This document shows positions 4,783 through 25,593 of a stretch of 64,000 bases of DNA, one piece after another (position 1 is the stretch's first letter; every line of letters starts with the position of its first letter). Both the position numbers and the translations under genes were made by a program. The DNA lies in NCBI GenBank assembly GCA_017445225.1, contig JAFSUN010000011.1, positions 1 to 64,000 on the forward strand, given 5' to 3'. The notes under the pieces were generated by a model that was given only the letters and a program-made list of their open reading frames with translations, was not told where the DNA came from and did not search any database. The DNA comes from Erysipelotrichaceae bacterium (GTDB lineage: Bacteria; Bacillota_I; Bacilli_A; Erysipelotrichales; Erysipelotrichaceae).

Positions 4783-5454
4783 ATGGATAAGAAGCTGTTA
4801 AGGGAAGCCGTTATCAAGTTTACGGCCGGCATCATTCTGGTCGGAGCACTGCTGTTTGTGCCAGCCGGCACTCTTAAGTGGTCCAATGGCTGGCTCTTCA
4901 TGGGCGTCCTGTTCATTCCCATGTTCATCGCCGGCATCGTCATGTATCTGAAAGCCCCGGCCCTGTTGAGAAGCCGTCTCAGTGCCAGGGAAAAGGAAGC
5001 CACCCAGCAGGGTGTCATCAGGTACAGCGGCTTGATGTTTCTGGCGGCCTTCATCGTCGCCGGTCTGAACTTCCGCTTTGGCTGGACTTCCCTGCCCGCC
5101 TTCGTGGTAACCGGAGCCGTCATCGTCTTTCTGCTTTCCTACCTGATGTTTGCCGAGGTCTTAAGGGAGAACGCCTATCTGTCACGGACCATTGAGGTAC
5201 AGGAAAACCAGACCGTTGTCGATACCGGACTGTACGGCATCGTCAGACACCCGATGTACAGTGCCACCGTCCTGCTGTTTCTTTCCATGGGGCTGATCCT
5301 GAATTCGATCATCTCCTTCGTGATCATGCTGGCCTACATACCCCTGATCGTTACCCGCATCAGAAACGAGGAAGAAGTTCTGGAAAGAGAGCTGAACGGC
5401 TATGTCGAATACGAAAAGAAGATCCGCTGGCGCCTGCTCCCCTTCATCTGGTAA
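4783..5454 (+). CDS. Isoprenylcysteine carboxyl methyltransferase-like membrane protein
   Basis: A 223-residue integral membrane protein of the ICMT/phospholipid methyltransferase superfamily. Four to six hydrophobic segments are followed by the C-terminal signature YGIVRHPMYS and the EEEVLERELNGYVEYEKK region ending near RLLPFIW, which in this superfamily forms the S-adenosylmethionine pocket. The substrate cannot be deduced; bacterial homologues mostly have no known one. The start at 4783 has GAGG 9 bases upstream; an ATG at 4774 sits too close to it. A TATAAT at 4749-4754 gives a plausible -10 without a clear -35. It diverges from the CIRCE promoter, whose operator ends about 35 bases before this -10. 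Confidence 0.75.
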   Translation: MDKKLLREAVIKFTAGIILVGALLFVPAGTLKWSNGWLFMGVLFIPMFIAGIVMYLKAPALLRSRLSAREKEATQQGVIRYSGLMFLAAFIVAGLNFRFGWTSLPAFVVTGAVIVFLLSYLMFAEVLRENAYLSRTIEVQENQTVVDTGLYGIVRHPMYSATVLLFLSMGLILNSIISFVIMLAYIPLIVTRIRNEEEVLERELNGYVEYEKKIRWRLLPFIW

Positions 5455-5515
5455 GGGGCAGATACTTTCCAGCTGGGAGAATTTGTTATAGAATGTGAGT
5501 ATGGAGAAAGAAAAA

Positions 5516-6109
5516 ATGAATGTAAAGTATAAGGACAAGCTCATTAAGATACTGCTGGCTCTGGTCATTGCCATGGGCTGCTTTCTGATCGGCTACTTCT
5601 CCCGCCCCAAGGAAGAGACCGGCCCTTCCCATTCCTCGGTGACCATTGAGGCAACCGTCAGGGAGCTGGCCGAGTTCACGACGCTGGAATACAACTATAC
5701 CAACATCGGCAAGTTTGAAAACCACAAGGAATTCTACGGCTGGGTGATCCCCTTCACCACCAGTCAGTTCATCGTGACCTATGACGGATCCATCAAGATC
5801 GGCATGGACATGAAGCAGGCAGCCGTTATTCAGAATGATAAGGAAGTTACCGTCCATCTGCCGGCCGCCCGGATCGTATCCCACACCATCGATTACGATT
5901 CCCTGGAGGTGATGGATGAGACCTACAGCATCTTCACCCCGATCGTCATCACTGACTACAATGCCTTCTACCGCGATCAGAGCATCGTCATGGAAAACAA
6001 GGTCATCGAAAAAGGCCTGCTGAGCGAGGCCCGGGAGAGCGGCATCAAGTATGTCGAGCAGCTGTTAAAGAACATCCTGCCGGAGGACTATAAGATAACC
6101 GTAAAATAA
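5516..6109 (+). CDS. DUF4230 family membrane-anchored protein
   Basis: A 197-residue protein with one N-terminal membrane anchor (about residues 8-26, KILLALVIAMGCFLIGYF) and an exported domain. The pattern ELAEFTTLEYNYTNIG, then FIVTYDGSIKIGMDM, then VTVHLPAARI matches DUF4230, a family of unknown function found mostly in anaerobic Bacillota and Bacteroidota. The start at 5516 follows GGAG by 9 bases; an ATG five codons upstream is possible but has a poorer site. It lies about 60 bases after the ICMT-like gene on the same strand and may be cotranscribed, ending at a strong terminator. Confidence 0.75.
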   Translation: MNVKYKDKLIKILLALVIAMGCFLIGYFSRPKEETGPSHSSVTIEATVRELAEFTTLEYNYTNIGKFENHKEFYGWVIPFTTSQFIVTYDGSIKIGMDMKQAAVIQNDKEVTVHLPAARIVSHTIDYDSLEVMDETYSIFTPIVITDYNAFYRDQSIVMENKVIEKGLLSEARESGIKYVEQLLKNILPEDYKITVK

Positions 6110-6135
6110 GAGCTGAAATCAGCTCTTATTTGTTT
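6104..6135. terminator. Bidirectional terminator between convergent genes
   Basis: A perfect 12-bp stem (6104-6115 with 6120-6131, loop AAAT) is followed by GTTTT on the plus strand and by TTTTA on the minus strand. It separates the DUF4230 gene from plsC and overlaps both stop regions. Confidence 0.88.
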
Positions 6136-6761
6136 TCCAGATACATCTGCTCCATGAGGGAGCGGATTTTTTCATTGGCCGCTTCCAGATCCTCATCCTT
6201 CCCGATCCAGACCGGATCGGCGAAATAGACCCGGGCCTTATCGATCAACGGCCGGTACTTCCCGCAGCATACCACCAGCGGAATGATCGGTGCTCCGGTC
6301 TCCTGCGCCATCTTCACGGCTCCGAACTTGAACGGCAGCAACGGTTCGGCAGTCCGATTGCGGGTCCCCTCCGGGAAAACGCCGATAACATTGCCCATTT
6401 CCAGTACCCGGATGGCAGCGGCCAGGCTCTTGCCGTCATGGCTGTTACGGTCCACCGGAATCGTCCGGGCCCCGCGGAACAGAAAGCCGAAGAGGCCTTC
6501 ATGGAGTTCCTTCTTGGCCAGGTATCTGATGGTCCGGCGAGTCGAAGTAATGATGAAGCCGGCATCGGGCAGCGAACGGTGATTGCTGGCGAGAATGACC
6601 GGCCCGTCCTTGGGAATCTTTTCCCTTCCGCAGAAGGAAGGACGGTACAGAGCATATGAAAGCGCCATGCACAGGAGCCTCAGTAACCGGTAGGCTCCGT
6701 CATCCGCTGTTGCATATTTCTCACTGAACTGCTCTTCCTTTAATCTGTCATCGCTTTCCAT
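6126..6761 (-). CDS. plsC: 1-acyl-sn-glycerol-3-phosphate acyltransferase (PlsC family)
   Basis: Transfers an acyl chain to lysophosphatidate at the membrane, giving phosphatidate for phospholipid synthesis. The 211-residue product carries the acyltransferase motifs in order: NHRSLPD (NHx4D, residues 60-66), the segment ending RGARTIPVDR (about 97-105), FPEGTRN (129-135) and APIIPLVV. One N-terminal hydrophobic stretch (about 28-40) may touch the membrane. The start is ATG 6761 with AGGT about 10 bases upstream; TTG 6767 is less likely. It is a single gene with its own stop in the bidirectional terminator. Related acyltransferases with other acceptors share these motifs, so the exact substrate is an inference. 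Confidence 0.85.
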   Translation of the reverse strand: MESDDRLKEEQFSEKYATADDGAYRLLRLLCMALSYALYRPSFCGREKIPKDGPVILASNHRSLPDAGFIITSTRRTIRYLAKKELHEGLFGFLFRGARTIPVDRNSHDGKSLAAAIRVLEMGNVIGVFPEGTRNRTAEPLLPFKFGAVKMAQETGAPIIPLVVCCGKYRPLIDKARVYFADPVWIGKDEDLEAANEKIRSLMEQMYLENK

Positions 6762-6920
6762 TAACAATTACCTGTTCTTACTCATATCATTTACACTTCC
6801 ACAATGCCATCGGATAATTCCGCAGTCACTCGACAATCCCGGCATTCTCAAAAAGCTATTCCGACTTATATTCCTCTGCCATGAATCTTCAGGCAGACAT
6901 CAGGATCATTTTGAACAGCA

Positions 6921-7619
6921 TTATGGCTCATAGGGAAGCGTGTCACTCCACGGTTCCACCGCAATGGCCCTGTAGATGTACGGTTCCCCTTTCTTCTTCG
7001 CTTCCTTCAGTTCACCGTTCGTGTAGATAGCGGTTATTCTGAGGCCGACATGTGGTTCTCTGGACAGAAGAACATTCCGAAGTTTCTGTTCAATCACTGT
7101 TTCATCGTTAATCAGGAAACGGTCAATGCTCATTCCCTGATTGAGAAAAACCACAAGATCAAGCGATGATTCATCGTATCTATTATAGGAAGACACCTGG
7201 CCATATGCTATTTTGATCCGCTGTTGTTTATCAAGGTTCATCTGCCTGCTGAGATAAAACTGGTAAATTACCAATAACATCACTGCCACGGCAGCACCCA
7301 GCACCCAAAGCAGTTTTTTTCCTTTTACGGCCCGGGAGTTGAGCCGGTTGTTTTCCTGAACAACACTGGAGAGATTATCCTCCAGTTTTTCAGTATAATG
7401 CTGCTCATCAAGGCGTTCACCGCTGATGAATTCATTGAATGAGATACCGAACAGTTCACAGAGTTCCTTGATGATCTGGATGTCCGGAAGACATTTGCCG
7501 TTTTCCCACTTTGATACGGCCCTGTCACTGACAGAGAACTTCTCTGCCAGCTGTTTCTGTGTTAATCCCTGTTCTTTTCTTAACTGGGCTATGAACTTTC
7601 CGATTCTGATCTGATCCAT
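6921..7619 (-). CDS. XRE-family regulator with a C-terminal membrane anchor
   Basis: A 232-residue protein with a helix-turn-helix of the XRE/Cro type at about residues 6-60 (LTQKQLAEKFSVSDRAVSKW), one transmembrane segment at about 101-123, and a C-terminal domain of about 105 residues that should lie outside the membrane. Such a layout suggests a one-component sensor that passes an extracytoplasmic signal to DNA; target and ligand are unknown. The start has AGGAGG about 8 bases upstream. A 45-codon reading frame with its own good ribosome site overlaps this start. A second XRE/membrane regulator lies upstream. The 152 bases between this gene and plsC hold no recognised feature. Confidence 0.75.
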   Translation of the reverse strand: MDQIRIGKFIAQLRKEQGLTQKQLAEKFSVSDRAVSKWENGKCLPDIQIIKELCELFGISFNEFISGERLDEQHYTEKLEDNLSSVVQENNRLNSRAVKGKKLLWVLGAAVAVMLLVIYQFYLSRQMNLDKQQRIKIAYGQVSSYNRYDESSLDLVVFLNQGMSIDRFLINDETVIEQKLRNVLLSREPHVGLRITAIYTNGELKEAKKKGEPYIYRAIAVEPWSDTLPYEP

Positions 7620-7726
7620 CTTCCCTGCCTCCTATGCCTAAATCTTAAGCCCTTTTCTGCCAGATTGAAAACAAACCTGTGGTTGAGTTGGCTATTCTGG
7701 CTTGGAGATCTTTCCCTGTCCTGCAT
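7589..7726 (-). CDS. Possible upstream open reading frame overlapping the XRE gene start
   Basis: A 45-codon frame begins at ATG 7726, with GGGGAG six bases upstream, and ends at TAG 7589-7591, about 30 bases inside the XRE gene. Its predicted product is basic and resembles no family known to me. It fills part of the 237-base gap between the two XRE genes, where a TACAAT preceded by TG (about 7752-7757) could be a promoter -10. It may be a translated leader that tunes the XRE gene or simply chance. Confidence 0.22.
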   Translation of the reverse strand: MQDRERSPSQNSQLNHRFVFNLAEKGLRFRHRRQGRWIRSESESS

Positions 7727-7856
7727 CTCAATCTCCCCATATACCAGAAGGATATTGTATCACATCAGCCCTTGCTATAGTACGCCTGTGCTGTTTTGAT
7801 TCAGTTCTCACGCTGCTTTGGCTGACCGACAAACCGGATACGGTATCAGCAGGTCA

Positions 7857-8663
7857 TCAGCTGTCATCTCGCTTGCGGCGGTTTTCGGCAATCAGGGTAT
7901 ATGTGCAATGGGCTGACCAGAACAGATAAACTGCCATGGTTGCCACTAGAAGGAATTCCATGCTGTCAGGAACCATTGCCGACAGACCGAATGCCGGACC
8001 ATTGACAAGCAGCAGCAGGGCATTGACCATTATTCCCGGTGAGGAGTCCTTCAGAAGAGCATAATTGACGAGCAGATTTACCAGCGCTGCCAGGGAATAG
8101 ATCAGGAACATTCTCTGACTGAAGCCATTATTACGCTTCCTGAGCACAAGAAAGCTTACCGCCGTTACATAAAGAACCGACGTCAGGACCGCGATGCCCC
8201 GGGTAGGGGTATTCAGCACCAGCCAGCAGAAACAGATCCCGGCGCTGAAGAGATGGATCAGCAGCAGATACAGCCAGCTCAGATCATCCCTGCCGGCACT
8301 CTGCCGGTCAAAGGCGGTCCTGTTCAATTCATTTTTAAAGTCATCAAGCTGTTCACTGATGTTTTGTTCGGTCTGAACGAGGCGGCTGTTAATGCCGTTT
8401 ATGCCGTCACTGACCCGGGTAAGTTTCCGGTCTACCTCCCTTTCAATGCTCAGCTGGCCGGAAAAGACCTCCTCAAGTGAAATGCCGAAATAATTAACGA
8501 TGTTGACGACATCATTCATGGTCGGCAAAGCCGAGCCCTTTTCCCAGCGGCCGACGGTTCGCTCCGATACCCCGAGAACGTCAGCCAGATCCGTCTGGCT
8601 AAGGTTATTCCTTTTTCTTAATTCGGCCAGAAAACGGGCTATTTTCTCATTATCAAGTTCCAT
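7857..8663 (-). CDS. XRE-family regulator fused to a multi-span membrane domain
   Basis: A 268-residue protein with an XRE helix-turn-helix at about residues 7-61 (LSQTDLADVLGVSERTVGRW), a likely coiled-coil linker at about 70-118, and four or five transmembrane segments between about 128 and 260. The architecture is common in Bacillota but functionally unassigned; it probably ties DNA binding to a membrane state. GGGGGA lies six bases before the ATG. It follows the small anchored protein gene by 17 bases, so the two are probably one operon and the small protein may be its signal partner or target. Confidence 0.72.
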   Translation of the reverse strand: MELDNEKIARFLAELRKRNNLSQTDLADVLGVSERTVGRWEKGSALPTMNDVVNIVNYFGISLEEVFSGQLSIEREVDRKLTRVSDGINGINSRLVQTEQNISEQLDDFKNELNRTAFDRQSAGRDDLSWLYLLLIHLFSAGICFCWLVLNTPTRGIAVLTSVLYVTAVSFLVLRKRNNGFSQRMFLIYSLAALVNLLVNYALLKDSSPGIMVNALLLLVNGPAFGLSAMVPDSMEFLLVATMAVYLFWSAHCTYTLIAENRRKRDDS

Positions 8664-8680
8664 TTATATCCCCCATTACC

Positions 8681-9085
8681 TTACTTAACTGCTTCCGTGA
8701 TCTTATCCAGCAGATCGGCATTCAGCACGGTGTACTCATTAAAGGCGCCGGCTGATTCATAACAGTAACTCTGCTGCCCTACCATCAGATGCCACCGTTT
8801 GGTGTATTTATTGAGATAAATCGTAATCTCAAAGGAATAACTGTCCAGCGAAGTTGTCTGTTCATAATCCCTTGACGTCCAGCGGCACTTAACACCTTTC
8901 AGGATCGCGTCAATGTTTTTCCCCGTCAGTTCCCGGTCCGTCCGCAGATCCCTGATGACGATATTCTCTATTACATCATCCTGTTCAATGAGATCGATAT
9001 CTCTTCGGGAAGCATGTATAACCAGTACGAATAATGACAGCAGCAGCACAACAGCTGTTAATACGATTGCTCTCTTCATTTTCAT
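8681..9085 (-). CDS. Small secreted or membrane-anchored protein of unknown function
   Basis: A 134-residue protein with an N-terminal hydrophobic segment (about residues 5-24, AIVLTAVVLLLSLFVLVIH) acting as anchor or uncleaved signal, followed by a soluble domain of about 105 residues outside the membrane. There is no lipobox Cys. I do not recognise the family. AAAGGAGG lies 11 bases before the ATG. It is the first gene of a likely two-gene operon with the downstream XRE/membrane regulator. Its promoter region contains GACAA/TTGTC half-sites (9141-9177) that could be an operator. Confidence 0.5.
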   Translation of the reverse strand: MKMKRAIVLTAVVLLLSLFVLVIHASRRDIDLIEQDDVIENIVIRDLRTDRELTGKNIDAILKGVKCRWTSRDYEQTTSLDSYSFEITIYLNKYTKRWHLMVGQQSYCYESAGAFNEYTVLNADLLDKITEAVK

Positions 9086-9140
9086 TCTGCCGTCTTCCTC
9101 CTTTTACAGCACCATTTTACCGCGGAACGCCAGCCATAAA

Positions 9141-9177
9141 TTGCCATAATTGTCCTAAATGCCGACAATTTTGTCCG
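9141..9177. promoter_or_regulatory. Clustered TTGTCC/GACAA half-sites, possible operator
   Basis: The plus strand contains TTGCC at 9141, TTGTCC at 9150 and a small palindrome GACAA-TT-TTGTC at 9164-9175. They lie upstream of the small anchored protein/XRE pair, in the position expected for an operator. The XRE protein is the natural candidate for binding, but nothing in the sequence proves it. Confidence 0.3.
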
Positions 9178-9183
9178 ATTAAC

Positions 9184-9207
9184 AAAAAAACTCCTTTCGG
9201 AGTTTTT
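9184..9207 (-). terminator. Intrinsic terminator of tRNA-Arg
   Basis: AAAAACTCC (9186-9194) pairs with GGAGTTTTT (9199-9207) around a TTTC loop. On the minus strand it is followed by a run of T. It begins three bases after the encoded CCA of the tRNA. Confidence 0.85.
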
Positions 9208-9209
9208 CA

Positions 9210-9286
9210 TGGCGCCCTCGGGGCGACTCGAACGCTCGACCGTACGCTTAGAAGGCGTATGCTCTATCCAGCTGAGCTACGAGGGC
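9210..9286 (-). tRNA. tRNA-Arg (anticodon TCT)
   Basis: A 77-nt cloverleaf on the minus strand. The acceptor GCCCTCG pairs with CGAGGGC, followed by discriminator G and an encoded CCA. The D-arm contains AGCTCAGCTGGATAGAGC. The anticodon stem TACGC/GCGTA encloses the loop CTTCTAA with anticodon TCT (9250-9252), reading AGA codons. The T-arm contains GTTCGAGTC. It is transcribed alone between a promoter at 9298-9326 and a terminator at 9184-9207. Confidence 0.97.
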
Positions 9287-9297
9287 ATCGCTCATTT

Positions 9298-9326
9298 ATT
9301 CTAGTCGAATAAGGCCATAAAATCAA
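9298..9326 (-). promoter_or_regulatory. Promoter of tRNA-Arg
   Basis: On the minus strand TTGATT and TAGAAT are 17 bases apart; the -10 ends 11 bases before the tRNA 5' end. Confidence 0.8.
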
Positions 9327-9356
9327 TAGTTATTTTCTTTTTCCCGGCCGGCCCCG

Positions 9357-9381
9357 AAACAAAAGACAGCCTGCGGCTGTC
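9357..9381 (-). terminator. Intrinsic terminator of typA
   Basis: GACAGCC pairs with GGCTGTC around a 3-base loop and is followed on the minus strand by TTTTGTTT. It starts six bases after the typA stop. Confidence 0.8.
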
Positions 9382-9386
9382 CTTCA

Positions 9387-11222
9387 TTACTGTTTTTCCT
9401 CTTCGCTCTTCTTTTTGGCCCGGAAGGCATTGAGTCTGTCCATGCTGGTCAGATAACGCTTGCGCAGTCTGATGGCATCAGGAGTGATTTCGGCCAGTTC
9501 ATCGTCACCGATGAATTCCAGGGCGTATTCCAGAGTCAGCTGGATCGGCGGCGTCAGCTTCATGGCCTCATCATGGCCTTCGCTTCTGACGGCCGTCATC
9601 TTCTTGTTCTTGGTCGGGTTGACTTCCATGTCCATGTCCTTGTTGCAGACACCGACGATCATGCCCTCATAGACTTCGGTCTGGGGGCCGATGAAGAAGC
9701 TTCCTCTTTCCTGCAGGTTCCAGATGGAATAGGTCATGGCGGTGCCATTGGCATTGGAGATCATGACGCCGTTGCCTCTGGTGTTGATCTCACCCATGTA
9801 CGGCATGTACTGTTCAAAGTTACGGACCAGAATGCCTTCGCCTCTGGTCATGTTGATGAACTCAGAACGGAAGCCGATCAGGCCTCGGGTGGAGACCAGG
9901 AATTCAATGGCAACATAGTTGTTCCTCTCCGTAACGTTTTCCATGATTCCGCCACGCTGATTCAGCTTGTTGATGACTGCTCCCTCATACTTTTCAGGAA
10001 CTTCACAGATGACTCTTTCCACCGGTTCGCAGCGCTTGCCGTCGATGTTCTTGAAGATGACCTGCGGCTTGCTGACGGCCAGTTCATAGCCCTCTCTTCT
10101 CATGTTTTCAATGAGAATAGTCAGTCCCAGTTCGCCACGGCCGCTTACCTTGAAGGTATCGGTGGTATCGGTCGGCTCTACTCTTAAGCCGACATTGACT
10201 TCCAGTTCCTTTTCCAGCCTTTCCTTCAGATTACGGCTGGTAACAAACTTGCCGCTTCTCCCGGCAAACGGTGAGGTGTTGACCATGAAGTTCATGGACA
10301 GCGTCGGTTCATCAATGTGGATCGGCGGCAGCGGTTCGATGTGGTCGCGGTCGCAGACGGTTTCCCCAATGGAGATGTCCGGAATGCCGGCGATGATGGC
10401 AATGTCACCGCTTCTGGCTTCATTGACAGCCTTTCTCTTGATGCCTTCATAGATGAAGAGTTTGGAGATGGTGCAGCGCTGCTGGCTGCCGTCATTCTTG
10501 CACAGAACGACCTGCTCACCGGTTCTTAAGGTTCCCTTATAGACGCGGCCAATGCCCAGTCTGCCGATGTAATCATCGTAGGCCAGATTGCTGATCTGCA
10601 TCTGCAGCGGTTCCTCATCCAGATCCGGATAAGGCTTTACATAGTCGATGATGGTCTCAAACAGCGGTACAATGCCGTTGTCAGGATCATTCTCGTGATA
10701 TTTGACGATTCCTTCCTTGGCGATTCCATAGAGGATCGGGAAGTTGATCTGGTCATCATTGGCGTTGAGGTCAAAGAAGAGCTCGTATACCAGGTCGATG
10801 ACTTCCTGGCTTCTGGCATCCTTCTTATCGATCTTGTTGATCAGCAGGATCGGTCTTAAGCCCAGTTCCAGGGATTTCTGCAGAACGAAACGGGTCTGCG
10901 GCATCGGTCCTTCGGAGGAGTCTACCAGCAGAATGACGGTATCGACAGTCTTGATGATGCGCTCGACCTCACTGGAGAAGTCCGCATGCCCGGGAGTATC
11001 AACGATGTTTATCTTATAGTCCTTATAAAATATGGAACAGTTCTTTGAATAAATGGTGATTCCTCTTTCTCTTTCCAGATCATTGGAATCCATGATCAGT
11101 TCACCGTGTTCCTCATTGGCTCTGAAAACGCCTGACTGATTCAGGAAGGCATCAACCAGAGTTGACTTACCGGCATCGACGTGGGCGATTACTGCCAGAT
11201 TTATGATCTTCTGCTTGCTCAT
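9387..11222 (-). CDS. typA: Ribosome-associated GTPase TypA/BipA
   Basis: A translational GTPase of the EF-G/LepA group (611 residues, typical length) that binds the 70S ribosome and supports 50S assembly and growth under stress. G1 is AHVDAGKST at residues 13-21, followed by the RGITI switch, DTPGHADF (G3) and NKIDKKDA (G4). The beta-barrel and EF-G-like domains III and V follow, then the TypA-specific C-terminal domain. GGGGGA lies six bases before the ATG. It has its own promoter, overlapping the end of the upstream phosphoesterase gene, and its own terminator. Confidence 0.96.
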
Positions 11223-19908: not shown

Positions 19909-19942
19909 AAAAACAAGCTGATTTTCATGTCAGCTTGTTTTT
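19909..19942. terminator. Bidirectional terminator between rnhC and the unknown NACHT partner
   Basis: A perfect 13-bp stem with A-rich left and T-rich right ends (19909-19921 with 19930-19942, loop of 8 bases) works for both convergent genes. Confidence 0.9.
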
Positions 19943-19953
19943 CATTTGAAGCA

Positions 19954-22233
19954 TCAGATATTTCTTCCGGGCTTTGCTACCCTGCTGATCCGGAAATAAC
20001 CGGTACGGCGGTCGCGGAAGATCACGTTGAAGGACAGGAAATCCCCTTCCCTGACCCCCTTGAGAATACTTATTTTCCGGCTCTGAATCGCTATTGTCTT
20101 ATCATTGTCAAGGCAGTGGCGGATGTGAAGAAGACAGTTTCCCGCATCCAGATCCTCCTTTTTTTCCAGGAAGCCGGAAATGGTCAGCGGATAGATGTTG
20201 CCGTGGCGCTGATGGTAGAACTCATCAGCCTCATCCAGCGGCAGCAGGTATCTTAAGACTGTTTCCAGGTAGGTTCTCGGAATCAAGGGCTGCGGCAGCA
20301 GTGATTTCTTCAGGGTGGTCAGAAGACTTTCAACTTCGACCTTATTGGTCCGGAAGTATTCCTGTCCCTGGCCAAACTGTTCCTCATCGAGAACGCTGTC
20401 CTTCCGGAAGCAGGATTCAACCAGCTCAGATACCTCAACCACCGCCTCAAAGCGTTTGTTGTCATGGACCAGTTCCTTCATGGCCTCCAGCATCAGATTC
20501 TGACAGATGAGGTCATAGCGGAAGTTTCTCAGGGTCAGCCGCAGGGAGTACAGCGAAGCCTTGAAGTTATCAACGGTAAGCTGCTGGCGCATCAGGGAGT
20601 TGAAGATCAGCCGGAGCTTGCTGCCGGACTTCTCCTGCTTCTGCACCATCCCGGCAAATTCCTCATTGCCGTACAGCCGGGTATATTGCCTTGATGAATA
20701 GACCTTGCCGGTTTCTTCCGGCAGCCGGACGGCGGCATTGATGATCAGGTTTCCGGGGCTTTCCCGGTCGGTCTTCAGACTGACGATCCGAAAGCGGACC
20801 GTCTGGTGATCATCGATATAACTGTTGATCTTTTTCTTACTGAGCCCCTGAACGTCAGCGGCCACGATGACCGTATAGTCGTTTCTGAGGTTATAAGAGA
20901 ACACTCTCAGGCGGTTCTCCTCATCCCGCTGCAGAAAGCCGGAGAACTCATAGGGAGCCAGAGCTTCGATGTTTCTGACCTCGCCGTCTTCACTGTTGTT
21001 AAGTTCCAGCAGACACCACAGAAACAGCGATACCGGATAGCCGGCCCTTAAGCGGGAATTCATGTAAAGTTCCATGATCTCCTCTTCCCCTAAATCGCTG
21101 GCCAGCAGCTTTTCCAGCGCCGTTCTGGTAACTTCAAAGGAGATGGAAGAAGTGGCAATCAGTTCTCTTTCCGCCGTAAAGGCAAAGATGTTGTTGCGGC
21201 CCAGGGTTCTGATGTAGTCCGGCAGCAACCGCGGATCGGTGATCATCAGGCTTTCAAAGGCCGCTTCCACCGCATCCTTCATGACAAAGGAACGCAGCGC
21301 CGGATAGCCGATGGGTTCCAGGGAGTATTCCCGCAGGATCTCTTGGGCGTGCTGGGGGTCCAATGCCAGGAGTTGATTGAAATGATAGAAAGCCAGAATG
21401 CTGAGGTATTTCGACTGGCTAAGCGGATCCAGCTGCTGCCTTACGAAGCGGTACCAGTCCGCCAGCAAGGTCAGGGTATCTTCATCCTGACAGGAGCGCT
21501 GCTGCATCTCCCAGCTGAAGGCCACATAGCGCAGGAAACGGACGTTATCCGCTTCACTACGGCGATAGATCAGTTCTTCAGGAGCCGTTTCCAGTTGGGC
21601 CAGGGTAACGGTCGGAAAGACCTTGATCAGGCTGTAGAGATATTCATACTGCCCCTTTTCCAGTGCCTGACGGAAAAGGGTCTTTATTTCTTCGGGCGTC
21701 TCTCTTAATTCGATGATGCGGCCGTAGTTGAACAGCTCATCTTCGGCATCGCGGAAATCGGAATGCAGATAGCGGTTGAGAATGTAGGAACACTGGTGTA
21801 TCTCGGTAAAGATCGGCAGGTTCAGCAGTTCCTGACAGCACCTTCTGAATGACTTCTGACCCTTGGGGGAGACATTGACCTCCCGGTTCTTCTGCAGGGC
21901 CCTGATGATCAGTTCCAGATCGTTCAGATAGATGCCCGTAATTGTCAGGTTGGCCAGATAGAAGTTATAGGGTCTTTCACTGGCCAGATATTCATCGGCA
22001 TATTGCCGGACTTTTTCCAGAAAGCGGGAGCGTTCCTCCTCGCTGAACAGCCGGCGGAAGCGGCGGAAGACGATGCAGGTGATGCACGCATTAAAGGGCA
22101 GAGCGTCCTCAAAGAATGCCAGGAGTGCTTCCCTGCCTTCACTCCGGTATACTCTGTTGGCTCTGTCCAAAGTGTCCAGATAGATATGTTCGCTGTCCTT
22201 TTCCCAGTCGATCAGGTTAACCGAGTAATTCAT
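19954..22233 (-). CDS. Large protein of unknown family, partner of the HEPN-NACHT NTPase
   Basis: A 759-residue protein with no signal peptide, membrane segment or recognised catalytic motif. Residues 1 to about 480 are helix-rich with TPR/solenoid-like spacing of hydrophobic positions. Two later segments resemble each other and OB-fold/cold-shock domains: one starting YEFSGFLQRDEE, the other, at the C-terminus, starting YPLTISGFLEKKED and ending with GDFLSFNV and GYFRISRVA (compare the GDxVxFxV pattern of cold-shock proteins). The ATG at 22233 lies 17 bases before the NACHT stop, with only a weak ribosome site, so translation is probably coupled. A longer reading of 825 residues is just the other frame of the NACHT gene. 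The tight pairing suggests a sensor or regulator for the NACHT protein; binding to nucleic acid is only an inference. Confidence 0.5.
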   Translation of the reverse strand: MNYSVNLIDWEKDSEHIYLDTLDRANRVYRSEGREALLAFFEDALPFNACITCIVFRRFRRLFSEEERSRFLEKVRQYADEYLASERPYNFYLANLTITGIYLNDLELIIRALQKNREVNVSPKGQKSFRRCCQELLNLPIFTEIHQCSYILNRYLHSDFRDAEDELFNYGRIIELRETPEEIKTLFRQALEKGQYEYLYSLIKVFPTVTLAQLETAPEELIYRRSEADNVRFLRYVAFSWEMQQRSCQDEDTLTLLADWYRFVRQQLDPLSQSKYLSILAFYHFNQLLALDPQHAQEILREYSLEPIGYPALRSFVMKDAVEAAFESLMITDPRLLPDYIRTLGRNNIFAFTAERELIATSSISFEVTRTALEKLLASDLGEEEIMELYMNSRLRAGYPVSLFLWCLLELNNSEDGEVRNIEALAPYEFSGFLQRDEENRLRVFSYNLRNDYTVIVAADVQGLSKKKINSYIDDHQTVRFRIVSLKTDRESPGNLIINAAVRLPEETGKVYSSRQYTRLYGNEEFAGMVQKQEKSGSKLRLIFNSLMRQQLTVDNFKASLYSLRLTLRNFRYDLICQNLMLEAMKELVHDNKRFEAVVEVSELVESCFRKDSVLDEEQFGQGQEYFRTNKVEVESLLTTLKKSLLPQPLIPRTYLETVLRYLLPLDEADEFYHQRHGNIYPLTISGFLEKKEDLDAGNCLLHIRHCLDNDKTIAIQSRKISILKGVREGDFLSFNVIFRDRRTGYFRISRVAKPGRNI

Positions 22234-23872
22234 CGATTCTGTTTCCCAGACCGCTGTCACGGCAGCAGTTCGTAAAGTAGACGCGGTATTCTTCGCTGCT
22301 GAAAGCCAGCTGGTCGTCGTTTTCCCGCTGCAGGATACCCATGCCGACGGCCAGATCGATGCAGCTCTGGCTGTCCGGCTTGGTGAAGGCCTTGATCCGG
22401 TTGACCAGAGCGATCTGCTCCATGGCGTCATCGTAGCTGAAGCGGTCCTTGTTCAGATGGGCAAAGGCTTCCAGATAGTAGCGCAGATAGGCCACATTGG
22501 GATCCTTCTTCTCCTCCATTTCCCTCTCATACAGCATGTCAACATAGCCGCCGGTAAGGTCAAACGGTATTTCGCCGGTCTTCTCCACGACATCAATCAG
22601 ATGCTTGAGGGTCAGCGGCTTGTTCATCATCGCAAAGGTCTCCGGGCTCTCGGAAAACTCCTTCATGATGATCTGCAGCTTTTCCGGGTCCTTCATGTTG
22701 GCCTCAAAGAACTTCTTCTTGTCTTCCAGCGACAGGGAGAACAGATAGAACATTCTGGCCATCCGCAAGGTCGGGACGTCATTCCTCATGACATTTCTGG
22801 TGGTGTAATTGCGGTCGGTCATGATGATCTTCAGGCCGTCATTCTGCGCCGCCAGGCTGTCCAGTTCCGATGCCACCTTGCGCTTGGTCTCATCATTGAG
22901 GATCTCGTTATAGCCATCCAGCAGCAGGATGACTTCCTTGTGGCTGATGAGTTCCTGGGCATCCCAGCGGCTGATGTTAAGGACATTGGCCGCTTCGCTC
23001 AGGATGATGCTCTTGCCGTTTCTCAGATTGGCCAGGGAGATGAAGACCGGCAGCGGTTTCTCCTGACCGCCCGCCGGCTGCTTCGCCAGCAGGTATTCCA
23101 TTCTTCTTAAGGCGGTGGTCTTACCGGTACCGGCATCGCCTAACAGCTTGATGATGTTGAAATTGTAATTCAGGATCTCATCAACACTTAAGACCTCGTT
23201 ATTGGCCTGGATGTTGGTCCACTTGATGTCCACATAGGTAAAGTCAGCCGTAAAGGCCGCCCAGTGTTTTTTGGCGGTTTCGCGGTATTTATAGCGGTCA
23301 ATCATCGTCTTTCGCTGATTGGCACCGTATTTGGCATTGATCTGTTCCCGATAGGTGTAGGCCAGATCCAGATAGCAGATCAAAGCGGCTCTTATTACTT
23401 TGTCAACCTCGTTCTTCTTCATTTCCGTCTGGGAATCATGGGTCACCTTGTTGCGGTTCTGATAGGTGATCAGATATTCCATCTTGAACCCCGGCTGCCC
23501 GGCCAGCGTTTCCGCCACGGTCCCCGTCAGGTTGGGGATCTGCAGCTTCTTGAAGACATTTCTTAACAGCTCGGCATATTCTTCCCGGTCAACATCCTGA
23601 ATGTAGTCATCACCGATGTGGTATGACGGGGAAACCAGCGTATTGTAGAGAGCCTTCATGAAGACTTCGATGATGTTGAAGGCTCTGATATAGTCCTTTT
23701 TCTCGGTGGGAAAGGCATCGGAGATGTCCATCAGATATCTCTCAAAGTTTACCTGTGTCTCATTGATCTCATAGAACTGCTGAAGAGCTTCCAGAGCCCT
23801 GGCAAACCGGTTGCCCGGAAACACATCGCCAACTTCGTATTCGATCCAGTCCGTGTATTTCTTATCCAGCAT
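22217..23872 (-). CDS. STAND NTPase with N-terminal HEPN-like region and NACHT domain
   Basis: A 551-residue protein. The NACHT module has Walker A GDAGTGKTT (245-253), Walker B VILLLDGYNE (314-323) followed by acidic residues, a sensor-like IIMTDRN (349-355), MMNKPLTLKHLI (415-426) and a C-terminal FSSEEYRVYF motif typical of STAND proteins. The N-terminal ~190 residues are helical and contain NRNKVTHD with Arg140 and His145, the Rx4H spacing of HEPN ribonucleases. There is no LRR, WD40 or TPR sensor in the protein itself. The ribosome site GGAG sits in the last codons of trmK, one base before the start, and the next gene overlaps its end by 17 bases. HEPN and NACHT proteins are known in phage defence; that role here is inference. 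The HEPN call rests on motif and helicity only. Confidence 0.72.
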   Translation of the reverse strand: MLDKKYTDWIEYEVGDVFPGNRFARALEALQQFYEINETQVNFERYLMDISDAFPTEKKDYIRAFNIIEVFMKALYNTLVSPSYHIGDDYIQDVDREEYAELLRNVFKKLQIPNLTGTVAETLAGQPGFKMEYLITYQNRNKVTHDSQTEMKKNEVDKVIRAALICYLDLAYTYREQINAKYGANQRKTMIDRYKYRETAKKHWAAFTADFTYVDIKWTNIQANNEVLSVDEILNYNFNIIKLLGDAGTGKTTALRRMEYLLAKQPAGGQEKPLPVFISLANLRNGKSIILSEAANVLNISRWDAQELISHKEVILLLDGYNEILNDETKRKVASELDSLAAQNDGLKIIMTDRNYTTRNVMRNDVPTLRMARMFYLFSLSLEDKKKFFEANMKDPEKLQIIMKEFSESPETFAMMNKPLTLKHLIDVVEKTGEIPFDLTGGYVDMLYEREMEEKKDPNVAYLRYYLEAFAHLNKDRFSYDDAMEQIALVNRIKAFTKPDSQSCIDLAVGMGILQRENDDQLAFSSEEYRVYFTNCCRDSGLGNRIDELLG

Positions 23873-23873
23873 G

Positions 23874-24530
23874 TCATTCTCCTTTCCCGATGATGCGGTC
23901 GATCTCGCTTATCTGTTCGTCCAGATGCCGGCGGTCCGGATGGCCTTCCGCCAGGGAATCCCGGATCCCGGCCAGCTTGTCCCGTTTCTGCTGCCAGCAC
24001 ATTAAGAAGATCTCGCTTCTTTCCTTAAGCAGGTACGGTCCGTAGTTTATCTCGTCTTCACTAAGGGTCATTTCCCCCTTCTCGACGATGAGTATTTCGT
24101 AGTACTTATAGTCTTTGATGATCCTTTCGTCAATGATCCGGTAGCCGTTGGTCATCAGCCACTTTCTTAAGACATTGACATTGCGGTTGACCTGAATGAT
24201 GGTCAGGCAGTCTGCGAAGAATTCCGGGGAGCTGCTCATGATGTGGATGGCCGTGGCTTCGCCCATGCCGGCAATGACCGCCACTTCGCATGGCGGCAGC
24301 ATGGTTGCCCCATCGCTCAGGATCGTTTCCACGTCATTGTATCCCCAGGCCAGCAGGTTCCGCAGGCAGTTTTCCAGCGGGCCCACCCGGTAGTCGGAAC
24401 AGATGATCTTGCCGGTATGGCCGTGATTCTTCAGCCAGATGGCCAGAAAACCGTGGTCACAGCCGATGTCCGCCACGCTCTTATCCTTCGGCACCAGGGA
24501 GCCGATCAGCTGCAGACGGCGGCTGATCAT
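23874..24530 (-). CDS. trmK: tRNA (adenine(22)-N1)-methyltransferase TrmK
   Basis: Methylates N1 of A22 in tRNAs, using S-adenosylmethionine. The 218-residue product has motif I as VADIGCDHGFLAIWL (about 20-34), followed by SDYRVGPLENC and AVIAGMGEATA, then a C-terminal helical extension of the TrmK/YqfN type. In Bacillus, trmK follows sigA directly and is followed by a Nif3-like gene. Here an extra sigma factor precedes it (ATGA overlap) and the NACHT gene follows after one base. AGGAGG is well placed inside the end of the sigma gene. Confidence 0.92.
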   Translation of the reverse strand: MISRRLQLIGSLVPKDKSVADIGCDHGFLAIWLKNHGHTGKIICSDYRVGPLENCLRNLLAWGYNDVETILSDGATMLPPCEVAVIAGMGEATAIHIMSSSPEFFADCLTIIQVNRNVNVLRKWLMTNGYRIIDERIIKDYKYYEILIVEKGEMTLSEDEINYGPYLLKERSEIFLMCWQQKRDKLAGIRDSLAEGHPDRRHLDEQISEIDRIIGKGE

Positions 24531-25522
24531 GCTTCCTCCTTCTCGGAAAGAGCCGCGATGCGTTCTCTGATCATCCTGATGATCTGGCTTTCGATCTGCC
24601 TTACCCTTTCCTTGGATACACCGTATTTATCGGCTATCTGCTGCAGGGTATGGTTTTCATAGCCTGACAGCCCATAGCGCATTCTGATTATTTCGCGGTC
24701 CCGCTCACTGATCTCCTCCAGGATCCGGTTGACCATCCGGTCGAGATCTTCATCAAAGAGCGCTTCGTCTTCCCTTTCATCGGGGATGATGTCCCCCAGT
24801 TCCACGTCCTTCTCCTCATTGATAATGCGGTTCATGGAGACCGGATCATACTGGATCAGCTGAAGCTGTCTTACTCTTCTGACATCCGCCTTCAGCTCGG
24901 AGGCGATTTCATTTTCCGTCGGCATTCGCTCCAGTTTCTGTTCCAGCAGCTTTTCCACCCGGTTCATCTGCTGGATCTCCTCGACGATGTTGACCGGCAG
25001 ATGGATCATGTGGTCCTGATTAATGGCCAGGGAGATGTACTTGCGGATCCAGTAGGAAGCATAACCGGCAAAGCGGATCCCCTTATCGGGATCATACTTC
25101 TCCGCCGCCTTCATTAAGCCGACATTGCCCTCCTGGATCAGGTCATTCAGGGAAAGATTACTGCCCCCGTATCTTCTGGCGATGGCGACGACTAAGCGGA
25201 GATTGCTCTTGACGATGGTGCTGCGGGCTACCACGTCGCCGTTCTTCGACCTGACGGCCAGTTCATATTCCTTCTCGGCGCTTAACAGCGGATACTGGGA
25301 GATATCCTTGAAATAGACGGAAGAGGCATCAAAGCTCTTCTCATCAGCCGGTAACGTCTCAATGGCCAGATCATTCTGATTGACCCACGCAATAAAATCA
25401 CCGATCTGACTTTCTGACAGTCCATAGGTCTGGATCGTCAGATCGATGTCTTCCTCATCGACGATGCCCTTGGCTTTCTTGATCAGCAGCAGGGCCTGCT
25501 GGGCGGCGGTATATTTTTCCAT
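24527..25522 (-). CDS. Second sigma-70 family factor (group 2-like)
   Basis: A 331-residue sigma factor distinct from RpoD next door. It has region 2 ([20 protein letters not shown] then LIQEGNVGLMKAAEKYDP, KGIRFAGYASYWIRKYI), region 3, and region 4 ending in the helix-turn-helix TLQQIADKYGVSKERVRQI. It lacks the acidic region 1.1 of RpoD. The N-terminal 80 residues are unlike RpoD. The start at 25522 is preferred because the ATG nine codons upstream lies across the -10 element of the apparent promoter; the resulting leader would be only about seven bases with a poor Shine-Dalgarno. It is preceded by the rpoD terminator, so it heads its own operon with trmK and the NACHT pair. Confidence 0.82.
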   Translation of the reverse strand: MEKYTAAQQALLLIKKAKGIVDEEDIDLTIQTYGLSESQIGDFIAWVNQNDLAIETLPADEKSFDASSVYFKDISQYPLLSAEKEYELAVRSKNGDVVARSTIVKSNLRLVVAIARRYGGSNLSLNDLIQEGNVGLMKAAEKYDPDKGIRFAGYASYWIRKYISLAINQDHMIHLPVNIVEEIQQMNRVEKLLEQKLERMPTENEIASELKADVRRVRQLQLIQYDPVSMNRIINEEKDVELGDIIPDEREDEALFDEDLDRMVNRILEEISERDREIIRMRYGLSGYENHTLQQIADKYGVSKERVRQIESQIIRMIRERIAALSEKEEA

Positions 25523-25535
25523 AGTATCTTCGTTT

Positions 25536-25564
25536 ATTCTAGCATTCATCGGTAAAAATATCCA
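25536..25564 (-). promoter_or_regulatory. Promoter of the sigma-trmK-NACHT operon
   Basis: On the minus strand TGGATA and TAGAAT are 17 bases apart and the -10 is preceded by TGC (extended -10). It lies just after the rpoD terminator. The initiating ATG is only about 14 bases past the -10. Confidence 0.55.
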
Positions 25565-25570
25565 CCACCG

Positions 25571-25593
25571 AAAAAGCACCCGCAGGTGCTTTT
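25571..25593 (-). terminator. Intrinsic terminator of rpoD
   Basis: AAAAGCACC (25572-25580) pairs with GGTGCTTTT (25585-25593) around CGCA, with five T on the minus strand. It separates rpoD from the second sigma gene. Confidence 0.88.

Follow-up and report, generated by a model that had tools for sequence, protein, structure and literature searches.

A probable HEPN-NACHT gene and its strictly linked partner in Erysipelotrichaceae: a candidate NLR-like conflict module split over two chains

Introduction

Why should a NACHT nucleoside triphosphatase (NTPase) and a large protein of no known family be encoded side by side, in overlapping genes, among the housekeeping genes of an Erysipelotrichaceae bacterium, and what might such a pair do? 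The question is raised by a stretch of 64,000 nucleotides, hereafter the window (positions 1 to 64,000 of contig JAFSUN010000011.1, assembly GCA_017445225.1), from a 1.03-Mb metagenome-assembled genome (MAG) that is 75% complete. The genes concerned, P0001 and P0002, are laid out as follows.

22217..23872, minus strand: putative HEPN-NACHT gene P0001, 551 amino acids (aa); Pfam NACHT match at 1.1e-7; six homologues with 37-44% identity to P0001
19954..22233, minus strand: partner gene P0002, predicted sensor chain, 759 aa; adjoins the NACHT gene in 7/7 genomes
22217..22233, minus strand: overlap of P0001 and P0002, 17 bp; the homologous pairs overlap by 17, 23, 4, 14, 14 and 14 bp

An initial annotation, made from the letters of the sequence, had proposed two open reading frames with a 17-base overlap and a 759-residue partner, and both are found where it placed them. 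We put forward, with a probability of roughly two in three, that the pair is a two-gene conflict module, horizontally mobile or sporadically retained and probably directed against phages, in which an NLR-like receptor is split over two chains. In the first chain, a NACHT switch would carry a HEPN RNase as its effector; the second, which evolves fast, would combine a TPR-like helical arm with one or two OB domains of the nucleic-acid-binding type.

Linkage and distribution of the pair

Whether the NACHT protein or its partner is the query, a search of 316 genomes from the order finds the identical set of seven genomes; in each, the two genes lie next to each other with an overlap of 4-23 bp. 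All seven encode two separate overlapping reading frames, and a single polypeptide occurs in none. The partner diverges faster, with 26-27% identity to the window copy against 37-44% for the NACHT protein. The relatives carrying the pair are Erysipelotrichaceae MAGs; where a source is given, it is mostly goat and sheep gut. All four genomes analysed of the genus here called g63 possess the pair, as does one of the eight other genomes in the genus of the window. The pair is thus not a core component of related genomes, and its internal linkage is complete. The initial annotation had looked to homologues for co-occurrence and for a defence-island context; the former holds in 7/7 genomes, while the latter fails at the window, where the neighbours are housekeeping genes. 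In g63 the ratio of nonsynonymous to synonymous substitution rates (dN/dS) is about 0.1 for both genes, similar to that of their neighbours, with dS near saturation, and by this codon comparison both genes are under purifying selection in the genus. The alignments available here are thin (7-8 sequences).

Copies of the pair occupy several genomic sites, those outside the window adjoining unrelated genes. In genome G008 the pair lies on another contig than the trmK/rnhC junction described below. Next to it are a macro-domain gene and one for a large repeat protein. Genes seen at this site include one with TPR-like repeats, the macro-domain gene and one encoding a surface-type protein of 1535 aa that has a match to a carbohydrate-binding domain (L009:23-655, 668-1186 and 5441-10048). 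In g63, the pair adjoins an M16 peptidase gene, and just beyond this come a gene for an AbiEii-type toxin (PF08843, E 4e-40) and the neighbour upstream of it (L016:521-2058). L017 and L018 have similar-looking genes in the corresponding position; an AbiEii gene nearby is a feature of the g63 copies only. G272 shows a further insertion beside the cassette: a DUF4143/AAA_14 ATPase gene (L018:4723-6141) separates gldA from the pair there, but not in G270.

The trmK/rnhC junction

The position of the pair in the window provides clues on its arrival and probable expression. Two further features are relevant.

23877..23885, minus strand: ribosome-binding site of the NACHT gene, AAAGGAGAA, within the 3' end of trmK; read from sequence
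19909..19942, no strand assigned: strong, near-symmetric terminator hairpin, 3' of both the partner gene and rnhC; 13-bp stem, -22.6 kcal/mol, z -5.7

The housekeeping neighbours in the window comprise uvrC, mutS2, cvpA, rnhC, trmK, two sigma factors, dnaG, glyS, recO and era, in agreement with the housekeeping setting first described. In contrast, the supposition that a Nif3-like gene normally follows trmK does not hold in the same-genus genomes, where trmK faces rnhC, usually 6-34 bp off. Such convergence of rnhC and trmK, with 6-34 bp between them, is seen in G002, G003, G004, G005 and G008, and so in the window the pair appears as a cassette at an otherwise empty junction. The empty junctions that were read out carry a terminator-like hairpin whose layout is similar to that of the window hairpin. 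Given these hairpins, and the strong one that the window has on the rnhC side, the cassette is bounded by the trmK stop at one end and by the terminator at the other. The same junction is filled by an unrelated lactonase gene (PF10282) in G001 and G007 (L054:2403-3335 and L056:2170-3102), and thus seems insertion-tolerant. On the other side of trmK, the window contains a second RpoD-like sigma-70 factor gene (24527-25579), between rpoD and trmK. This gene is also found in G005, G001 and G007 (L051, L054 and L056) and is missing in G008 and G004 (L052 and L053), where trmK comes directly after rpoD.

The pair is read in the same direction as trmK; the NACHT gene has its ATG 1 nt beyond the trmK stop and its ribosome-binding site still within trmK. 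The pair thus probably uses the transcription of the operon; no promoter of its own was recognisable above shuffled background. One could accordingly imagine a stress or RNA-quality-control regulator that has become part of the trmK operon and cleaves cellular RNA in response to a physiological signal, the more so as neighbouring genes act on tRNA and on RNA:DNA hybrids and the pair is kept under purifying selection in all four g63 genomes. However, a regulator of this kind fits poorly with the absence of the pair from seven of the eight other same-genus genomes and from 309 of the 316 in the order, with the unrelated surroundings of the other copies, and with the lactonase, which suggests that the junction is merely tolerant of insertions. 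We regard this scenario as quite unlikely.

The NACHT chain and its N-terminal domain

The features of P0001 are the following.

22694..23152, minus strand: NACHT NTPase domain, aa 241-393; Pfam, with Foldseek and VIA structural matches to NLRP3, NLRC4 and NOD2
23114..23140, minus strand: Walker A, GDAGTGKTT (G245-T253); G245, A247, G248, G250, K251 and T252 invariant in seven homologues
22904..22927, minus strand: Walker B, LLLDGYNE (aa 316-323); L317, L318, D319, G320, N322 and E323 invariant in seven homologues
23303..23872, minus strand: predicted HEPN effector domain, aa 1-190, all helical; AlphaFold2 secondary structure and invariant motifs
23654..23668, minus strand: Ex3K motif, E69-K73, in helix 67-80; invariant in the alignment and equivalent to the HEPN helix-2 motif (PMC3710099)
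23438..23455, minus strand: RNx3H motif, R140-H145, at the end of helix 130-145; R140, N141, T144 and H145 invariant; canonical HEPN position

By its sequence P0001 is a NACHT NTPase with intact Walker motifs. It matches PF05729 (NACHT) with an E-value of 1.1e-7 and 32.2 bits, above the curated cut-off of 26.7, and the profile is matched by all seven homologues. The STAND NTPase with complete Walker A and B motifs that had been read from the sequence is therefore confirmed, with core residues invariant in the seven homologues. Apart from NACHT, no family exceeds its cut-off in P0001, and an NCBIfam EruA match is weak and far below cut-off. The modelled region aa 190-477 aligns with NLRP3, NLRC4 and NOD2 (VIA Z about 14-15, root-mean-square deviation, rmsd, about 6 Å), and Avs4 is among the structural matches (Z 10.1). 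Some 150 aa lie past the NTPase core, and no repeat domain is seen in this low-confidence region of the model. The other NACHT-profile match in the genome of the window is a LevR-like regulator.

The N-terminus is more variable, just 21 of its 190 positions being invariant among the seven homologues. These include E69, K73, R140, N141, T144 and H145. In the AlphaFold2 model, which is of moderate confidence, E69 and K73 fall in helix 67-80, and helix 130-145 ends in R140-H145; residues 81-129 between these helices form a poorly ordered insert, and another helix follows at 153-173. In the HEPN superfamily as described by Anantharaman et al. (2013; PMC3710099), helix-2 carries an Ex3[KR] motif, helix-3 ends in an Rx4-6H motif whose arginine is followed by a polar residue, inserts between these two helices are frequent, and several families have established RNA cleavage activity. 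The Rx4H motif first noted at Arg140 and His145 in a helical region is correctly numbered and falls within the invariant R140-N141-x2-T144-H145; the invariant E69-x3-K73, which had escaped attention, completes the HEPN signature. When the same 21 invariant residues are placed at random, Rx4-6H arises in 3.1% of trials, and the full signature of R[NDH]...H with an upstream Ex3[KR] in one of 200,000; this test was chosen after the observation, the motif itself having been fixed beforehand in the literature. The bare motif appears in 4% of shuffled N-termini, and so without conservation it is weak evidence.

Both signature motifs being invariant and rightly placed in a predicted helical domain, the N-terminus is probably a HEPN domain. 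Its membership is argued from motif and anatomy because profile searches reached no HEPN family. Searched against the PDB, the N-terminal profile matched just YcjX and helical proteins that are designed or unrelated, and the VIA list, which covered aa 190-477 and not the N-terminal domain, held no HEPN structure. In an alternative scenario, the domain is a binding or oligomerisation module bearing a coincidental motif, with the effector elsewhere or the pair enzyme-free. Such a module would agree with the missing HEPN profile match, with the modest model confidence and with the existence of bNACHT clades that have no readily discernible effector (PMC12169576). Nevertheless, coincidence would have to account for both HEPN motifs being invariant, on the expected helices, in an otherwise variable domain, an outcome reached once in 200,000 random placements, and we consider this explanation unlikely.

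The partner chain

P0002 belongs to no family in Pfam, NCBIfam or PADLOC, which upholds the original description of a large partner of no known kind. Its AlphaFold2 model (predicted local distance difference test, pLDDT, 75) suggests four parts.

21001..22194, minus strand: helical-repeat arm, aa 14-411; AlphaFold2, mostly pLDDT >75; Foldseek probability 0.93-0.94 to a consensus TPR, E about 0.02
20725..20946, minus strand: first OB domain, S1-like, aa 430-503, b1-b2-b3-a-b4-b5; AlphaFold2 and VIA
20194..20664, minus strand: second helical block, aa 524-680, low confidence; AlphaFold2; absent from the 550-aa g63 partners
19975..20187, minus strand: second OB domain, aa 683-753, topology as in the first; AlphaFold2 and VIA

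The first predicted OB domain (model range 399-510) aligns with an S1-type OB protein over 79/83 residues (VIA Z 7.4, rmsd 2.9). The second matches the LysRS anticodon-binding OB, a telomere end-binding OB and PolD (Z 7-8.2, rmsd about 3), and it also aligns with the RecO and SSB OB folds at lower Z; taken together, these matches have an rmsd of about 2-3, with SSB wider. Since these Z-values are modest, the assignment is carried by the topology and by the consistently OB-type matches more than by any score. Three g63 genomes (G270, G272 and G273) encode partners of 550 aa that lack the C-terminal half of P0002. In G271, the partner has an in-frame stop (L015:5864-5866) at the boundary where those three proteins end, and the C-terminal half, thus cut off, is still present as a frame of its own (220 aa); the stop could represent decay or a genuine gene split. 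Overall, with its predicted helical repeats, OB folds of the nucleic-acid-binding type and fast evolution, the partner looks like a sensor.

The tight overlap and strict co-occurrence of the two genes are also what one would expect from a toxin-antitoxin pair, with the HEPN-NACHT chain as toxin and the large partner as antitoxin or inhibitor, without dedicated phage sensing. HEPN toxins are common in such pairs (PMC3710099), and the AbiEii-type gene near the g63 copies points the same way. However, the partner is large and repeat-rich, has two OB-like domains and is encoded downstream of the NACHT gene; moreover, its C-terminal half is lost or split off in some genomes in which the pair is still kept. 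A NACHT switch on the toxin implies, in turn, activation controlled by a signal. A toxin-antitoxin role thus seems improbable to us.

Proposed mechanism and evidence against it

As a split receptor, the pair might operate as follows. At rest the NACHT chain would be kept inactive, probably together with the partner. The partner would then recognise an infection-related ligand, be it RNA, an RNA-protein complex or a phage protein; its OB folds suggest that RNA or an RNA-protein complex is perhaps the ligand. The NACHT domain would exchange or bind NTP and oligomerise, bringing HEPN domains into pairs whose RNx3H sites would cut RNA (tRNA or mRNA), so that translation and infection stop.

Several observations weigh against this proposal. 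The window surroundings consist of housekeeping genes and no defence island, such a location being usual for antiphage systems but not required. The examples are only seven, all from MAGs, some on short contigs (7-12 kb). No homologue of the pair was found in phages, plasmids or viral contigs. The AlphaFold2 model of P0001 has a pLDDT of 68, falling to <50 in the HEPN insert, and the OB Z-scores of 7-8 are close to the background of the aligner. Finally, a hidden Markov model search reached no Pfam HEPN family at significance, and hhalign against three ApeA-type sequences, a thin profile-profile test, performed no better than controls.

Searches beyond the order and known systems

To the narrow distribution described above, wider searches add little. 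A single-sequence scan of genome contigs with P0001 gave no match, and an alignment-based scan gave six loci, all records of genomes already counted. Profile matches across the class are weak, and those read out are ClpA-like AAA+ proteins, which we take as chance P-loop matches. Plasmid matches (a 1094-aa Sinorhizobium protein and NACHT proteins of E. coli and Shigella) share only the NACHT region with P0001. The Sinorhizobium protein was not used as a single-chain relative because its N-terminus resembles an HNH-type domain and not HEPN. No partner homologue was found in plasmids, and neither gene in viral contigs. Phage matches amount to two Vibrio phages with a bNACHT01-like gene; one of these, a 14.8-kb member of the Tectiliviricetes, carries this annotated, NLR-related gene on a very small genome (L073:2755-4545, PQ189336.1).

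The closest resemblance is to published single-chain bacterial proteins that combine HEPN, a STAND ATPase, TPR and an S1/cold-shock domain (Npun_F6454, MED222_16016 and Desac_1927), and to a B. cereus protein (gi 229028907) with N-terminal HEPN and C-terminal OB (PMC3710099). Like these HEPN-STAND-TPR-S1 proteins, the pair would join HEPN with Rx4-6H, a STAND NTPase, TPR and an S1/cold-shock OB, its repeats and OB being predicted. Compared by published description, it differs in being split between NTPase and repeats into two overlapping genes, and its arm has a second helical-OB unit that is lacking in some homologues. Calling the pair undescribed, as the initial annotation did, was therefore too strong, the same domain set having been published in single chains in 2013 (PMC3710099). 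Literature searches, which covered few subscription journals, found no description of a strictly linked two-chain form or of a detachable second OB unit. It is these two aspects, and not the already known domain set, that appear to be new in the pair. Of the earlier interpretation, the probable HEPN domain, the NACHT switch, the sensor-like partner, the strict linkage and the patchy, multi-site distribution stand; the claim of an undescribed module goes too far, and the Nif3 context falls.

SAMD9 proteins have the architecture AlbA_2-Sir2-STAND-TPR-OB, with an OB fold predicted to bind RNA and, in some members, two such folds; the AlbA_2 and Sir2-like domains are lost in some members (PMC5445408). 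They share with the pair the order of effector, STAND-like NTPase, TPR array and OB, and are antiviral in animals. Unlike the pair, with its HEPN-like N-terminus, they begin, where these are kept, with AlbA_2 and Sir2-like domains (for which P0001 has no Pfam match), form a single chain and belong to another STAND branch. A more specific and clearly more tentative possibility follows this likeness, namely a modular two-chain NLR in which a conserved HEPN-NACHT chain works with a separate, fast-diverging RNA-reading arm (TPR and S1-type OB) whose second half may be dropped or separately encoded, in effect a split bacterial counterpart of SAMD9 that would both sense and cut RNA.

Avs (AVAST) STAND proteins unite the STAND switch, the effector and a repeat sensor in one very large chain. 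Avs4 has a STAND NTPase in common with P0001, as its structural match indicates, but Avs represent a different NTPase branch. ApeA-type HEPN proteins (PF18739) possess, like P0001, an R[ND]x3H motif (RNDVDH, RNRISH and RDKFTH in same-class members) but have no NACHT domain seen and no partner. The bNACHT proteins, which defend against DNA and RNA phages, resemble the pair in their central NACHT and N-terminal effector (e.g., bNACHT25) but are one chain; this chain includes a C-terminal sensor of the NCH1 or SNaCT type. The effector of bNACHT clade 6 is a PD-(D/E)XK DNase, and defence depends on this nuclease; bNACHT25 requires host DnaJ (PMC12169576).

Implications

Should the pair prove to be a split NLR-like receptor, the effector-plus-switch and the sensor of such a system would be separate proteins, and so each could be purified, mutated and swapped alone, which is hard in the single-chain Avs, bNACHT and SAMD9 proteins. 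The OB-fold arms of HEPN-STAND and SAMD9 proteins, predicted to bind RNA, would be tied to a directly testable sensing role. Placement in a housekeeping operon would show how island-based searches for defence systems can miss such modules. The finding would also bear on the gut Erysipelotrichaceae, whose immunity is little studied.

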